Virus record (IMG/VR): IMGVR_UViG_3300047409_000150
Coordinates: 1-20,702 of that record
Length of the DNA: 20,702 nucleotides
From: a virus
Strand: one strand, 5' to 3'
The notes beneath the pieces are model-generated. The model had not been told where the DNA came from, did not search any database, and worked only from the letters and a program-made list of their open reading frames with translations. This document shows, in pieces, positions 2,135-19,037 of this stretch. The translations under genes were made by a program, and so were the position numbers. Every line of letters starts with the position of its first letter. Within the stretch, counting starts at the first letter, position 1.

Positions 2135-2250
2135 ACCCGGTAACCCTGTTGCTGTGGTCGCTGTCGGGCGCGACAGACCTAGTCGTTCTAGTCGTGTGCG
2201 CGCTGGCGATAGTCGTCGCGTTCGTCGTGTTCGGGGGTGGCTGGCAATGA
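2131..2250 (+). CDS. Single-span small membrane protein
   Basis: A 39-residue protein that is almost wholly hydrophobic: MNPVTLLLWSLSG, then DLVVLVVCALAIVVAFVVFG as one clear transmembrane helix, ending GGWQ. Both ends overlap neighbouring genes by four bases (ATGA). The order secreted muralytic protein, 59-aa protein, membrane peptide might form an envelope-directed set before the recombination genes. A holin-like or exclusion role is possible but unsupported beyond the helix. Confidence 0.65.
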   Translation: MNPVTLLLWSLSGATDLVVLVVCALAIVVAFVVFGGGWQ

Positions 2251-3209
2251 CGACGAACCGCGTAGTAGCGACGATGACAGGCGACGACTGGCACGAATGG
2301 CGGCGCGGCGGTATCGGCGGGTCCGACATCGCCGCCCTAGTCGGACTGTCGCGGTACGCGTCGCCGACGTCGCTGTACTACGAAAAAACTGGGCTACTCA
2401 CCCGCGACCACGAAGACACAGAACGAATGCGAATAGGTCGCCGAATGGAAGGGCTACTAGCCGAAGAATTCGCCGACAGAACAGGTCTGTACTGTGTCGG
2501 CGCGCAGACCCTATGGGCGCACAAAGACCACGCGTTCGCCCGTTGCACACTGGACGGGTTCGCCGCCGAAAGCGACGACCTAGACGACACAGCGGTACTA
2601 GGGACCGTCCAGTTCAAAACAGACGGGCGGTTCGGCTGGCCTGACGGGGTTCCGCCGAACATACGCGCCCAGTGTGTGTGGGAAATGGGCGTAACAGGTC
2701 TGGCGATGTCCTGGCTAGTCGTCATGTTCGCGGGGTTCCGAATTCAGGTGTACGAAATCCCGTTCGACGACGAAGCCAAAACCGACTGGGAATTCATGCT
2801 GTCGACAGCGTCCGACTTCTGGGACCACGTCACGACAGGCGACCCGCCGCCGCCCGACGACCACGAAGCGACGACACGCGCCCTAGAAGAAATCCACGAA
2901 CCAGACCCGACACAGGAACTAGACGCGACCGACACGACGCGTTACCTGGTTGACCTGTTACGCGCCGCGAAGGCGAACACGAAAGCGGCGAAGGCGACAG
3001 AAGACGCCCTATCGAACGAACTACGCGGGGTCCTGGGCGACGCCTGCGACCTAGTCGACGGCGGGCGGGTCATCGCGTCATGGCGACCACAGACCGCCCG
3101 ACGATTCGACGTCGAAGCGTTCCGAACGAACTACCCAGACCTAGCCGACGTCTACACGAACGAAACGACATCGCGCGTACTGCGACTACACACAGCGAAG
3201 GGGAAGTAA
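2247..3209 (+). CDS. YqaJ-type viral exonuclease (RecE/lambda Exo-like)
   Basis: 320 residues, starting at the ATG that overlaps the previous TGA. The N-terminal nuclease domain shows the YqaJ pattern: WHEWRRGGIGGSDIAALVGLS, then GRRMEGLLAEEF (conserved Glu), TLDGF (metal Asp) and VQFKT. The last is the usual E-x-K position, with Gln in place of Glu here. The family degrades one strand of linear duplex DNA 5' to 3' to make 3' tails for its annealing partner. The C-terminal third is Ala/Lys-rich with a possible coiled coil. It lies directly upstream of RecT (TAATG overlap), making a RecET-like pair. The Gln is worth checking for activity. Confidence 0.88.
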   Translation: MTTNRVVATMTGDDWHEWRRGGIGGSDIAALVGLSRYASPTSLYYEKTGLLTRDHEDTERMRIGRRMEGLLAEEFADRTGLYCVGAQTLWAHKDHAFARCTLDGFAAESDDLDDTAVLGTVQFKTDGRFGWPDGVPPNIRAQCVWEMGVTGLAMSWLVVMFAGFRIQVYEIPFDDEAKTDWEFMLSTASDFWDHVTTGDPPPPDDHEATTRALEEIHEPDPTQELDATDTTRYLVDLLRAAKANTKAAKATEDALSNELRGVLGDACDLVDGGRVIASWRPQTARRFDVEAFRTNYPDLADVYTNETTSRVLRLHTAKGK

Positions 3210-4057
3210 TGCCCACAGGAACCACAGTCGAAGCGGCGGCGAAGGCGGCGGGCGACGCGAAAGACGTCGCCCAGACTCACCTACAACATCTGCGAACCAG
3301 TATCGAAAAAGCAGAACCACAGTTCGCTATGGCGCTACCCGAACACGTCAGTTCGGGACGGTTCATACGCGCCGCGCTTACCGCGCTGAACGTCGTTCCA
3401 CGACTCGCAGAATGCGAACCCCGTTCGGTCATCGCGGGACTAATGCAAGCCGCGCAGCTGGGCCTAGAAGTCGCCGACGTCCGCGGCCAGTGTTACCTGA
3501 TACCGCGACGCGACTCGCGGGCGGGCGTGATGAAAGCGACATTCCAGCTGGGTTACCGCGGCATGGTCGACCTAGCCGCCCGTTCGGGAATCACAGTCAC
3601 AGCCGAAGACGTCCACGAAGGCGACACGCTGGACTACGGATTAGGTTCGCGCCGCTACCTAGTGCATCGCCCGACGCTACGCGGCAACCGCGGCGACGCG
3701 TACGCCTACTACGCGGTCGCAACGTTCGCCGACGCCCGCGAACCCGAATTCAAAATCATGGGTCGTCAACAGATAGAGGAACATCGCGACAGGTTCGCCA
3801 GCACACGCGACGGGAAAGGGACCGTTACCGGACCCTGGGTCGAACACTTCGACGCCATGGCCCGCAAGACCGTGATACGCGCCCTACTGAACTACCTACC
3901 CGTGTCGGTCGAACTACGCGACGCCATACGCGCGGACGCTGTCGAAGCGACCACGAACGACCGCCCGCCGCCGCCCGAACTACCCGCGAACGTCGACGGG
4001 CTGACAGGTGAGATAGACGCCCTAACCGTTATCGAAGTCGACGAAAACCCGTCGTGA
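3209..4057 (+). CDS. recT: RecT family single-strand annealing protein
   Basis: 282 residues from the ATG that shares a base with the YqaJ stop, with GAAGGGGAAG as a strong ribosome site. The RecT core is clear: an N-terminal helix, FIRAALTALNVVPRLAECEP, SVIAGLMQAAQLGLEV, QCYLIPR, then FQLGYRGMVDLAARSG, GDTLDYGLGS and WVEHFDAMARKTVIRALLNYLP. RecT proteins coat and anneal complementary single strands made by the partner nuclease, for phage recombination, repair and circularisation. No RecA-like or polymerase gene is present, so replication probably uses host machinery with this recombination pair. Confidence 0.93.
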   Translation: MPTGTTVEAAAKAAGDAKDVAQTHLQHLRTSIEKAEPQFAMALPEHVSSGRFIRAALTALNVVPRLAECEPRSVIAGLMQAAQLGLEVADVRGQCYLIPRRDSRAGVMKATFQLGYRGMVDLAARSGITVTAEDVHEGDTLDYGLGSRRYLVHRPTLRGNRGDAYAYYAVATFADAREPEFKIMGRQQIEEHRDRFASTRDGKGTVTGPWVEHFDAMARKTVIRALLNYLPVSVELRDAIRADAVEATTNDRPPPPELPANVDGLTGEIDALTVIEVDENPS

Positions 4058-14126: not shown

Positions 14127-15518
14127 GTGCCTGTCTGGCGTCCTGGCGACGCGTGGCCCACTACGACGCCTGGCGGCGCTGTATCGCCTCACTGGGGCGG
14201 TTACACGAAGCTGTACGTACGCGCCGCTATCGGCGCTGGGAATTCGTTCCACATGGGCGCACACAACTACGACCGCCTGAACGCTGGGAACGTGTTAGGC
14301 GGCGGGACACCCGCGCCAGGCGGCGACCTGTGGGTCGATATCGCCTGTGACGTTCGCGATATCGGCGTGATAACTGGGGCGACGACGTCGCAGGGCATTC
14401 TGTCGAAACCCGACGCGGGAACCGTGACCGTCACTATCGCTGACCCTGGCGGTATCTACGACCCGCTGAACCCTGGCGGACCATTCGCCTACGGCGGACG
14501 GTCGCGACTGATACCAGGAACACCGATAGAGGTTTTCGCCGAAGTCGTCGACGGCGACACAGCCGCCGTATCGACTCACTACCTGTTCACAGGGACCGCT
14601 GACAGCTGGGAACAGGACTGGACGCCGAAGCCACACGACCGCGAAACGAAACTGGTCGCGACGGACGCGACAAAACAGTTCGCCCGACTGGACCGACCCG
14701 AACAGCCGCCCGCAGGCGCAGGCGACACGACGAAACAGCGCATACACCGAATCGTGGACTTTTTCGGCTGGACCGGAACCGTGATCGACCCGCCGACAGG
14801 GTCAGGGACCGCGACGCTACAGGCGACGACGCTCGCCCAGTCCGCCTGGGAACTGTTGAACCGCACACTGGACGACGAACTCGGTTACGTCTACGTCACG
14901 ACGAAAGGCGAACTTCGCTGGCTACCGCGTTCGACGTGGTCGACGACCGTTCCGCCGTCAGTGACGCTGGGCTGTGATGTCGGTTACGACGTCCTGATAG
15001 ACGCGACCCCGTCCGCGCTGGATCGGCAAATGCGAAACGCTGTCTATGCGGCGCGCACAGGCGGGGTAGCGCAGTCGGCGACGTCGCAAAGTTCGATTGA
15101 CAAGTATGGGCGCTACGACTACACGCGCACAGACCTAGGGTTAGCCGACGACGCGCAGGCGGGCGTGTGGGCGACGACACTGGTGACGCTGTACGCCTAC
15201 CCACAGGTCACGCTGGACGATGTCGTCATGCGACCCGACGTCGACCCGAAACCGTGGAAGGCGTGGAAGTCGATACTCGGTGTCACGCCCGTAACCGACA
15301 TCGTCCGCGTTCACTGGTCGCCGCCCGACATACCGACACATGTCGTCGACGTCAATTCGCGTGTGTTCGGCATCGCTCACGACATCACACGCGCCGCGTG
15401 GGAAGTGAAATGGCAACTGGTCAACAGTCGCCCAGCGGCGCAGGCGGGCGCTGTGTTCACGATGGGACCGCACCCCCAAGACCGCCTAGATAGCAATTTC
15501 GTACTGACAGCCGCGTAA
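14127..15518 (+). CDS. Minor tail protein (baseplate/tail-tip)
   Basis: 463 residues from GTG right after the tape-measure stop. It is beta-rich with SQGILSKPDAGTVTVTIADP, YDPLNPGGPFAYG and HYLFTGTADSWEQDW, as in siphovirus distal-tail/tail-tip proteins. Only two large tail-tip genes follow the tape measure, so this one probably joins the roles normally split among several proteins. A motif is repeated at both ends: FHMGAHNYDRLNAGNVLGG (near residue 42) and FTMGPHPQDRLDSNFVLTA (near residue 446). Confidence 0.8.
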   Translation: MPVWRPGDAWPTTTPGGAVSPHWGGYTKLYVRAAIGAGNSFHMGAHNYDRLNAGNVLGGGTPAPGGDLWVDIACDVRDIGVITGATTSQGILSKPDAGTVTVTIADPGGIYDPLNPGGPFAYGGRSRLIPGTPIEVFAEVVDGDTAAVSTHYLFTGTADSWEQDWTPKPHDRETKLVATDATKQFARLDRPEQPPAGAGDTTKQRIHRIVDFFGWTGTVIDPPTGSGTATLQATTLAQSAWELLNRTLDDELGYVYVTTKGELRWLPRSTWSTTVPPSVTLGCDVGYDVLIDATPSALDRQMRNAVYAARTGGVAQSATSQSSIDKYGRYDYTRTDLGLADDAQAGVWATTLVTLYAYPQVTLDDVVMRPDVDPKPWKAWKSILGVTPVTDIVRVHWSPPDIPTHVVDVNSRVFGIAHDITRAAWEVKWQLVNSRPAAQAGAVFTMGPHPQDRLDSNFVLTAA

Positions 15519-16993: not shown

Positions 16994-17359
16994 TTGCCAG
17001 ACTCAGGGATACACAAACCCAGCCGCGACTGGGTCGCGTTGACACTCGCAATCGGGCTGGCGACCGCCGTGAACCTGATAGTCGTCGGCGTCCTACTCGC
17101 CGCCTACTACCGCGGCCAGAAGACAGGCGACTACTCACTATCCGAAAACGCGACACAGGTACTCATCGCCGCATTCGGCGGAATGATCGGCGTCATCGGC
17201 GGATACGTCGGCGGTAGCTCAGTAGCGAAAGCGACGACCGTGTCAGCCGAACGCGACCAAATGCTGTTGAACGCCCAGCCGATACCCGACGACAACGCGG
17301 TCCAACATGTCGACATCGTCGGGACCGTCGAAACGACAGAAGCGACGCCCGACGCGTGA
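16994..17359 (+). CDS. Two-helix membrane protein, probable holin
   Basis: 121 residues, read from TTG 16994 (two bases after the endolysin stop). An upstream ATG at 16937 would overlap the endolysin by 55 bases and is less likely. It has two membrane helices (VALTLAIGLATAVNLIVVGV and VLIAAFGGMIGVIGGYVGGS) with a polar loop, and a charged C-terminal tail. Its position right after the endolysin suggests the holin that lets the amidase reach the wall. The start is uncertain. Confidence 0.75.
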   Translation: MPDSGIHKPSRDWVALTLAIGLATAVNLIVVGVLLAAYYRGQKTGDYSLSENATQVLIAAFGGMIGVIGGYVGGSSVAKATTVSAERDQMLLNAQPIPDDNAVQHVDIVGTVETTEATPDA

Positions 17360-17499
17360 CAGGGTTCGACTGGTCGAATCTGAACGTCGCCGCCGCGTTC
17401 ATACTCGGGGCGGTCCTGGCGACCGTCGCAACCATTCGCATCGTTCGCGCTGTGTCGGCGACGATGCGCGACGAACGTAAGAAAGACCGCGACAGCTAG
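17356..17499 (+). CDS. Single-span membrane protein, second holin candidate
   Basis: 47 residues, GTG overlapping the previous stop (GTGA). One transmembrane helix (VAAAFILGAVLATVATIRIV) is followed by a basic tail (MRDERKKDRDS). Pairs of small membrane proteins after the endolysin are typical of actinophage lysis cassettes, where one may act as holin partner or antiholin. Its TAG shares the palindrome CTAG with the TAG of the convergent minus-strand gene, leaving no room for a terminator between late and lysogeny transcripts. Confidence 0.7.
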   Translation: MTGFDWSNLNVAAAFILGAVLATVATIRIVRAVSATMRDERKKDRDS

Positions 17500-17863
17500 G
17501 ACCGTGTCACGTCGCGCAGCATCGCGGCTGTCTGGTCACGCCACACGAACAGCGCCGCCAGCGCGGCCACAGGAACCTTTCCCGAAGGTTTCGCCAGCTG
17601 TTCGACAACAGGAAGAACGATGTCGTCAACAGTCCACGGTCCAACATGACGCGGGGCGGTGTCGGGTTCGTGTGGGACGACGTCGACCGACTGGCGCGGC
17701 TGACGTCCAATCGTGACGGGTCCGTCCGCGATGCGGTGTATCACTCGCCCGACGACAGGTAGGGACATATCGTCGGGGTGGCGCTGTCGGATATGCGACG
17801 CCGGATTTCGGTACACGCCGCCGCACAGGTCGCAGCGGTAACGTCCTGATAGATCGCTTCCAT
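17496..17863 (-). pseudogene. C2H2-type zinc-finger protein, frame broken at 5' end
   Basis: From about 17843 to the stop at 17496 the minus strand reads as phage-like coding sequence with a zinc finger at its start: RCDLCGGVYRNPASHIRQRH (Cys-x2-Cys-x8/9-His-x4-His). A helical C-terminal part follows, with VEQLAKPSGKVPVAALAALF and WRDQTAAML. No start codon precedes the cysteines in this frame. The ATG at 17863, overlapping the stop of the 118-aa gene (TGATG), is one base out: it reads MEAIYQD and then runs into a 40-residue out-of-frame peptide ending at 17741. Adding one base near 17843 would give MEAIYQD-(R)YRCDLCGG. It may be a real mutation, a recombination junction or a sequence error. 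Confidence 0.7.
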
Positions 17864-18219
17864 CAGTCCTCCCACTCTTCGAGCTCTTTGCGGATCGCCT
17901 CGAGCAGCGCTTGGCGAGCTTCCTTTGACGGCGGCATCAACGAGAAATGACCCTCTGGCCGTTTCCAACCCCAGCGGGTCTCGGCCAGCGCCGCCATCGT
18001 CGAGGCGGCGGTCATGAACTTGTCGAGGCTGGTCTGCAGGATGATCGAGCCTTCGATGTCGGCTGAGATGATCATCACTGAGGGTTCGCCGGATTGCATT
18101 CCCGCCTCGATGACGCAGAACGTCATCGCCTGGTTGCCCGACAGATCGATGATCGGTTGCGGTAGGTCAGGCAGCGCGGGTGGGTCAGCCTTGCCTTGAG
18201 CCAGAATGCGCGCTTCCAT
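17863..18219 (-). CDS. Hypothetical protein in a foreign-composition block
   Basis: 118 residues. The ATG at 18219 overlaps the previous TGA and has GGGAGG ten bases upstream, so this start is preferred to the upstream GTG at 18252. It appears soluble, with a Pro-rich start, a beta core (MTFCVIEAGMQSGEPSVMII), a helix (SLDKFMTAASTMAALAETRW) and an acidic helix at the end (ARQALLEAIRKELEEWED). I recognise no family. Glu is GAG as often as GAA (about 7 to 5 by hand), against almost only GAA elsewhere, and GAGCTC and CTCGAG occur, which marks it as acquired. Downstream of the HTH gene it would be expressed in the lysogen, so it is a candidate moron or exclusion gene. Confidence 0.75.
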   Translation of the reverse strand: MEARILAQGKADPPALPDLPQPIIDLSGNQAMTFCVIEAGMQSGEPSVMIISADIEGSIILQTSLDKFMTAASTMAALAETRWGWKRPEGHFSLMPPSKEARQALLEAIRKELEEWED

Positions 18220-18350
18220 CAGTGCACCACCTCCCGGATCGAGTCGATGCACTTCGACTCGGCGAGACCGCCGTGTTCCCGACGGGCGTAGGCCGCGTCG
18301 AGCTCAGCGATCGCCGCCTTGACACCGTTCAAGCGGTCGACCGTACCCAC
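18219..18350 (-). CDS. Hypothetical short ORF, probably the 3' part of a broken gene
   Basis: From GTG 18350 this reads 43 residues (GTVDRLNGVKAAIAELDAAY and on to SIREVVH), mostly helical, with its TGA overlapping the next ATG and carrying the GGGAGG ribosome site of that gene. It may not be independent: the 54-aa gene before it stops inside it in another frame. One added base near 18338-18345 would fuse the two as ALWV-x-VDRLNGVKAAIA. Codon use changes to the foreign type about here. Confidence 0.5.
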   Translation of the reverse strand: MGTVDRLNGVKAAIAELDAAYARREHGGLAESKCIDSIREVVH

Positions 18351-18493
18351 AGCGCGACGTCGGGCGCGTCAGGTAGGTCTAGGGCCAGTCGGTTCGTTAG
18401 ATGTCCGTCGACAATTTCGGCGCGTAGCGGTACACCGTTGCGGTGTGCGAGGCCCAGAACCCAGCCGACAAATTGCGCGTGTCGAACGTTCAT
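18329..18493 (-). CDS. Hypothetical small protein, perhaps 5' part of a broken gene
   Basis: 54 residues from ATG directly after the TAG of the HTH gene (TAGATG). It reads RHAQFVGWVLGLAHRNGVPL, then RAEIVDGHLTNRLALDLPDA, with phage-type codons (CTA, GAA, CGA). It ends ALWVRSTA at a TGA inside the foreign-composition block. The abrupt end and the open frame just beyond it suggest a truncated or frameshifted gene. No family is recognised. Confidence 0.55.
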   Translation of the reverse strand: MNVRHAQFVGWVLGLAHRNGVPLRAEIVDGHLTNRLALDLPDAPDVALWVRSTA

Positions 18494-18736
18494 CTACTGC
18501 GACCGCCGTGGGGGGGGGGGGGGGGTCTGATTGCGACGTTCGCAGGCGGCTACGAACGCGGCGACCGCCGCAGGACGAAAACGAATCGTGTGGTAACCCA
18601 GACGCACCGACGCCAGCTGACCCGAACGGGCGTAGCGTTTCACGGTTTCAGGCGACACGCTCAGCATCGCGGCAACCTGGGCAACGGACAGTAATCGGTC
18701 ATCTATGGGCCTACCCCTTTCACCCGAACAGGTCAT
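18494..18736 (-). CDS. HTH protein, putative immunity/lysogeny regulator, with a poly-C tract
   Basis: 80 residues. An HTH_17/MerR-type domain occupies residues about 15-60: LLSVAQVAAMLSVSPETVKR, ARSGQLASVRLGYHTIRF, then AAVAAFVAACERR. It is the first gene of the only leftward cassette and faces the integrase across attP, as phage repressors often do. No larger cI-like repressor is present, so it is the best repressor candidate. An excisionase role is the alternative. Residues TPPPPPRRSQ are encoded by 16 consecutive C bases (18525-18510), a likely slippage site four codons before the stop. Confidence 0.75.
   Translation of the reverse strand: MTCSGERGRPIDDRLLSVAQVAAMLSVSPETVKRYARSGQLASVRLGYHTIRFRPAAVAAFVAACERRNQTPPPPPRRSQ
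18510..18525. repeat. 16-base G homopolymer (poly-C in the minus-strand HTH gene)
   Basis: Sixteen G in a row on the plus strand, within the last codons of the HTH gene. Losing one base would change the end to a short HGGRSR tail stopping on the next gene's ATGA. Gaining one would read about 45 residues further through the next gene's region. It is also the position in this window most prone to sequencing error. Confidence 0.9.
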
Positions 18737-18828: not shown

Positions 18829-19037
18829 CTACACACTTTCGTTACACACTGGCGGGTTCGTTCGGCGGAAAAGTGCCCCTGACCAGGTGGGCGTGACAGG
18901 AATCGAACCTGCGACTTCTACCGTGTCATGAGACACAACAGCCCAGTTCAGGCGTCACGAACAGGGGATTTCTACACACTGATAGCTACTATTTGTCCTG
19001 GGGTGATACCCGCTAGTACACACAACTACTACACACA
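18829..19037. repeat. Arm-type repeats (TACACAC) flanking attP
   Basis: Five copies of NTACACAC(T/A) lie on the plus strand: 18829-18837, 18842-18850, 18972-18980, 19016-19024 and 19029-19037. Two are on one side of the core and three on the other. This is the layout of arm sites bound by the N-terminal domain of lambda-type integrases. Assignment is from position and repetition only. Confidence 0.65.
18886..18929 (-). other. attP: attP core: 3' half of a tRNA-Val(GAC)
   Basis: On the minus strand this reads as a tRNA from the anticodon loop to the 3' end: loop ATGACAC (T33, anticodon GAC), stem 3' strand GGTAG, variable AAGTC, T-arm GCAGG-TTCGATT-CCTGT, acceptor CACGCCC, discriminator A, then CC. 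The matching 5' half (CTACC, GGGCGTG) is absent, so it is not a functional tRNA gene. Phage attP cores often copy the end of the host tRNA they enter so that the tRNA is restored. It lies just upstream of the integrase operon. Confidence 0.8.

Follow-up and report, generated by a model that had tools for sequence, protein, structure and literature searches.

A probable recent phage-derived insert in the excisionase operon of a temperate phage that avoids GAG

A 505-base block in the genome of a small temperate phage is best explained as a recent import from an L002-like phage with normal GAG content, received in the leftward operon headed by the excisionase gene of a phage that avoids GAG, and we assign this reading a probability of roughly 0.78. 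The window analyzed here is the whole of the 20,702-nucleotide IMG/VR record IMGVR_UViG_3300047409_000150; other viral contigs are referred to by L numbers. As is typical of a mosaic insert, the block differs from both of its flanks, relatives exist that lack it, and its only complete gene, encoding a 118-aa protein (p118), has a relative in another phage. Phage patchwork of this kind is ordinary. The avoidance of GAG at the DNA level across the clade is more surprising than the insert, and because the clade shuns this word, imports can be told apart from native DNA base by base.

RESULTS

Genome and operon context

The record carries an exact 127-base repeat at its two ends. We read this repeat as the k-mer overlap left when a circular molecule was assembled, and the genome is therefore taken to be circular and about 20,575 bp long. 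The exact end overlap also agrees with a circular assembly graph having closed through both joints of the block. The phage presumably comes from soil, to judge by the sample numbers that IMG gives for its relatives. Its terminase is 35 to 36% related to the terminases of small Rhodococcus and Gordonia phages. Structural and lysis genes in the window encode a portal, a capsid, tail proteins, and an amidase-type endolysin, and further genes encode a replication initiator, an HNH endonuclease, and a tyrosine integrase in addition to a RecE/RecT pair (Table 1). The half tRNA near the integrase fits a temperate phage. The counterpart of this tRNA region is similar in L005 and different in L009. A host search with a terminase profile in GTDB gave nothing better than a 30% match in Leucobacter, and a search with the tRNA half gave one match with a single mismatch in 396 genomes, covering the tRNA itself only.

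The preliminary description had treated the helix-turn-helix (HTH) protein encoded at the head of the leftward operon as a putative repressor. This protein is instead excisionase-like, scoring 32.2 bits against TIGR01764 (cut-off, 28.8), and therefore the argument for lysogenic conversion that was built on a repressor is lost. Near the end of the same gene there is a run of G residues that codes for a proline run, with 16 G in the window (18510-18525), 13 G in L005 (471-483), and 10 G in L009 (~772-781), so that the lengths differ by multiples of three.

Three close sisters of the phage (L005, L009, and L027) were found when relatives without the block were sought as proposed earlier. None of the three carries the block, and no relative was found that has the same arrangement with intact frames. 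A Cys4 gene directly follows the HTH gene in L005 and L009, and in L027 the Cys4 gene is followed by an intact 160-aa zinc-finger gene and then by the lysis genes. In the window (18490-18493), the 54-aa gene starts at the same ATG as the sisters' unrelated Cys4 gene (~454 in L005). The stretch before this common ATG is identical, and the exchange falls exactly at the start codon.

Table 1. Positions of the features discussed in the window
Feature	Position	Strand	Basis or remark
RecE-like exonuclease	2247..3209	+	phrog_434 1.6e-74
RecT-like single-strand annealing protein	3080..4057	+	phrog_148 6.4e-70; coordinates are those of the longest ORF, actual start codon probably more internal
Zinc-finger gene, 5'-truncated	17496..17840	-	alignment to intact 160-aa gene of L027 (L027:307-789)
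Foreign block, from phage without GAG avoidance (probable)	17841..18345	.	505 bases
First ~7 codons of further donor gene, cut at left joint	17841..17863	-	sequence
13-bp direct repeat CGCTTCCATCAGT, copy 1	17855..17867	.	downstream end of p118
p118, only complete gene of block	17863..18219	-	70% aa identity to L002:6001-6351
13-bp direct repeat CGCTTCCATCAGT, copy 2	18211..18223	.	start of p118
3' remnant of donor gene ("43-aa ORF"), 5' part missing	18219..18345	-	frame translation
Shine-Dalgarno-like GGGAGG of p118	18230..18235	-	upstream of ATG
54-aa gene, native part, 3'-truncated at right joint	18346..18493	-	longer homologues
Excisionase-family HTH protein, first gene of leftward operon	18494..18736	-	PF12728 1.8e-11; phrog_66
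tRNA 3' half beside integrase, probable attP	18893-18950

Base composition of the block

A change in composition between about 17843 and 18345 had been noticed in the preliminary description and is borne out by the counts. On the plus strand, GAG and CTC together occur 23 times in 17843-18345 compared to 88 times in all 20,199 bases outside it. At the outside rate the block would be expected to hold 2.2 (Poisson P ~3e-16). The 501-bp flanks contain only two GAG/CTC each, and the highest count among 503-bp windows starting up to position 17300 is 8. Relative to base composition, the GAG/CTC ratio is 1.25 in the block and 0.12 in the rest of the genome. Thus, the earlier statement that GAG becomes common holds as a contrast, but it is the remaining genome that is starved (about one-eighth) while the block has an ordinary GAG level.

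Longer words behave comparably. CGAG parallels GAG in its distribution between the block and the rest of the window, GAGCTC occurs twice in the block and nowhere else in the window, and CTCGAG occurs once in the block and once elsewhere (5908). GATC is found 8 times in the block and 22 times elsewhere in the window. Furthermore, we scored the window in pieces with third-order Markov models trained on several phages. The log-likelihood ratio for the block favors the model of L002, a phage unrelated to this one, over that of its own genome by +85 nats, whereas the adjoining pieces prefer their own genome (zinc finger, -34; 54-aa gene, -14; HTH gene, -22 nats), as do the amidase and holin pieces.

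Joints and truncated genes

The edges of the block defined by homology, 17841 and 18345, lie 2 to 5 bases from the values first proposed. Frames are indeed broken at both edges, since the 54-aa frame ends at ~18346 and no start remains for the zinc-finger frame left of ~17841. Homology of the zinc-finger gene to its L027 counterpart begins at 17840, with the second Cys-containing motif (YACRLC in L027, YRCDLC in the window). Approximately 45 first codons of the L027 gene are missing, and a search of all minus-strand frames of the block for the N-terminal part found it absent. At the other edge, homologues of the 54-aa protein in L024, L025, and L026 extend with VVPPPP(D/H)DW, whereas the window switches to RSTA and a stop. 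Because the zinc-finger N terminus and the 54-aa 3' end are absent, the edges are truncations rather than one-base errors, and the earlier proposal that one added base would heal each break does not hold.

Donor genes are also truncated at these positions. The reading frame that had been described as a 43-aa gene is chimeric, with its listed GTG start on the native side of the joint, and is actually the 3' remainder of a donor gene that was cut. Another donor gene, cut at the left joint, has a start ATG overlapping the p118 stop codon, and the resulting chimeric ORF continues to 17741. In all, four genes are cut, namely the native 54-aa and zinc-finger genes plus two donor genes. Composition, truncations, and absence from the sisters all agree with the original view of the edges as recombination joints of a foreign block. 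A 13-base stretch at the left joint (ACGTCCTGATAGA, 17841-17853) recurs in a tail gene (14989-15001), and this may be chance.

The p118 gene

The gene for p118 is co-oriented with the excisionase gene and, as reported earlier, has a good ribosome site, with GGGAGG before the ATG. This site contains GGAG, which has only four copies in the genome, two of them within the block. When the two small products of the block were compared with phage proteins as had been suggested, the 118-aa protein yielded one relative and the 43-aa product gave no convincing match. The relative is encoded by L002 (IMGVR_UViG_3300037070_002798) and is the sole one among the viral contig, phage, plasmid, and GTDB collections searched. 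There were no relatives in INPHARED, PLSDB, or GTDB genomes, and a profile of p118 and its L002 relative retrieved nothing further from the viral contigs.

A codon comparison of the two genes gave a dN of 0.217, a dS of 1.49, and a dN/dS of ~0.15, and this excess of synonymous change indicates that the p118 family is a real, constrained protein. Searches with p118 gave no matches in Pfam, NCBIfam, or PADLOC, none credible in PDB, and one weak match in PHROGs (0.064). An AlphaFold model (pLDDT of 47) was too poor for a fold search. The homologue in L002 lies downstream of a Cas4-type exonuclease and adjoins a Gp3-like gene. Going by these neighbors, we suggest with low confidence that this small protein is an accessory factor in the recombination or replication of phage DNA. 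In the window it may simply be a passenger that is expressed. The 13-bp direct repeat that brackets the gene could be a product of chance.

GAG avoidance across the clade

Outside 17841-18345, GAG and CTC are avoided about 8-fold in the window, on both strands and at all codon positions, and GGAG is nearly absent (ratio, 0.01). The avoidance is shared by L003 to L009 (Markov ratios of 0.13 to 0.23) and by L027 (3.6 per kb). It extends to the more distant L011 to L013 but not to L010 or L014 to L016. In the small actinophages RRH1, SallySpecial, and McGonagall the avoidance is weaker, with GAG ratios of 0.56 to 0.96. As a separate observation, GATC is missing from L004 to L007 and from L027, and the window has few copies of it outside the block. 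Depletion of CCGG is strong as well, and the pattern resembles restriction-site avoidance.

Codon bias alone was considered as a cause of the avoidance and was rejected. GAG and CTC spanning codon junctions occur 12 and 18 times, respectively, compared to 107 and 125 times after synonymous shuffling (a total of 30 versus ~232 expected), and none of 300 shuffles was as low as observed. C-to-T mutation is also an unlikely cause, as CTC sites of the L017 amidase gene are mostly CTA or CTG in the window. Known kinds of causes for word avoidance include depletion of protospacer-adjacent motifs (PAMs) (PMC4246573, PMC12174588) and avoidance of restriction sites (PMC4687349), and a literature search for GAG avoidance in phages found no paper. 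We tentatively raise the possibility, which we consider doubtful, that this DNA-level avoidance stems from host attack on the asymmetric three-base word, by CRISPR recognition of a PAM or by an undescribed short-motif nuclease, and that the block has not yet been purged.

The first ~4.4 kb of L017 is mostly 85 to 94% identical to the window and poor in GAG, and beyond this point identity is 66 to 77% and GAG is normal. The switch at ~4400 is either a second mosaic joint or the sign of a chimeric contig. Because identity and GAG level change together, GAG level marks ancestry, unless L017 is chimeric. The window holin is 88% identical to the L017 holin at the protein level, and five of the six GAG/CTC sites in its gene are common to both phages. 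The holin gene may therefore be an older, partly adjusted import.

Alternative explanations

The proposal that the block carries a selected cargo gene (a moron), with p118 acting in the lysogen by, for example, excluding other phages, is unlikely, though it is the most probable of the alternatives. The gene is intact, has a good ribosome site within an integrase-side leftward operon, and belongs to a family under purifying selection. However, p118 lacks any match in PADLOC, Pfam, or NCBIfam and any confident match in PHROGs, and its L002 relative is in a DNA-metabolism cluster rather than in a cargo position. Nothing was found to support the role in lysogenic conversion or exclusion that the preliminary description had anticipated. 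The main rival to the import reading, although rated slightly less probable still, is an assembly artifact, with 505 bases from a different phage erroneously built into the contig. Both joint sequences were searched in other viral contigs and no record spans either, and L003, which is 99.97% identical to the window, ends short of the block. These observations would be expected of a chimera, but the exact 127-base self-overlap of the contig is what a circular de Bruijn path at k=127 should produce. Two independent false joins around a short piece, both in nonrepetitive sequence without Ns, would also be needed, which is unlikely, and the native flanks are missing rather than duplicated. The self-closure of the contig and the need for two false joints are our reasons for rating this explanation low.

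The remaining two possibilities have very little probability. The frame arithmetic of the preliminary description is what speaks for a native region with two single-base sequence errors. This is countered by the ~45 N-terminal zinc-finger residues of L027, which lie in no minus-strand frame of the block, and by the composition shifts at both edges. An insertion sequence or other small mobile element would similarly account for a discrete 505-bp insert, but no transposase or endonuclease was found in the block and no inverted repeats of at least 6 bases exist between the joints. Moreover, the insert took the place of native sequence instead of splitting it and duplicating a target site, and fragments of donor genes are present at both ends.

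DISCUSSION

Proposed origin of the block

If the block is a recent import, the donor segment would have carried the 3' part of one gene, p118, and the first codons of another gene, in this order. The recipient would have been a GAG-avoiding temperate phage, and the leftward excisionase operon its entry site. On entry, the segment would have displaced both the 3' end of the 54-aa gene and the zinc-finger gene's 5' part, along with whatever lay between them. We infer that the exchange occurred by illegitimate or short-homology recombination, in a co-infection or with a resident prophage, and the phage's own RecE/RecT pair possibly assisted. p118 would then have been a passenger on the excisionase transcript, where its own ribosome site would serve for its translation. 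The donor search found nothing closer than 70% amino acid identity (L002, for p118 only).

The block represents a clean case of gene gain and breakage in small phages, with one intact orphan gene between truncated neighbors. Recent imports could be mapped in this GAG-avoiding clade, and perhaps dated.

Comparison with known systems

L002 resembles the block in carrying the 118-aa homologue at 70% identity and in its similar base composition. It differs in the gene just upstream of p118, which is not that of the block remnant, and L002 is not the direct donor. A better-known parallel is the illegitimate-recombination mosaicism of actinobacteriophages, in which the joints of mycobacteriophage mosaics lack extended homology (PMC3029335). 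The window shares with these genomes exchanges that lack extensive homology and fall at gene edges or close to them, and the involvement of small uncharacterized genes, and the switch in L017 resembles the same mosaicism. Unlike in that system, the joints in the window lie inside genes, leaving truncated remnants on both sides, and the provenance of the block is visible through GAG avoidance.

Relaxed recombination by phage Rad52-like and annealing recombinases is the subject of PMC3945230. The likeness is that a temperate phage with a RecE-like/RecT-like pair gains a short segment from another phage. The window differs in that no diverged flanking homology is shown at its joints, so that a mechanism of this type is inferred for it.
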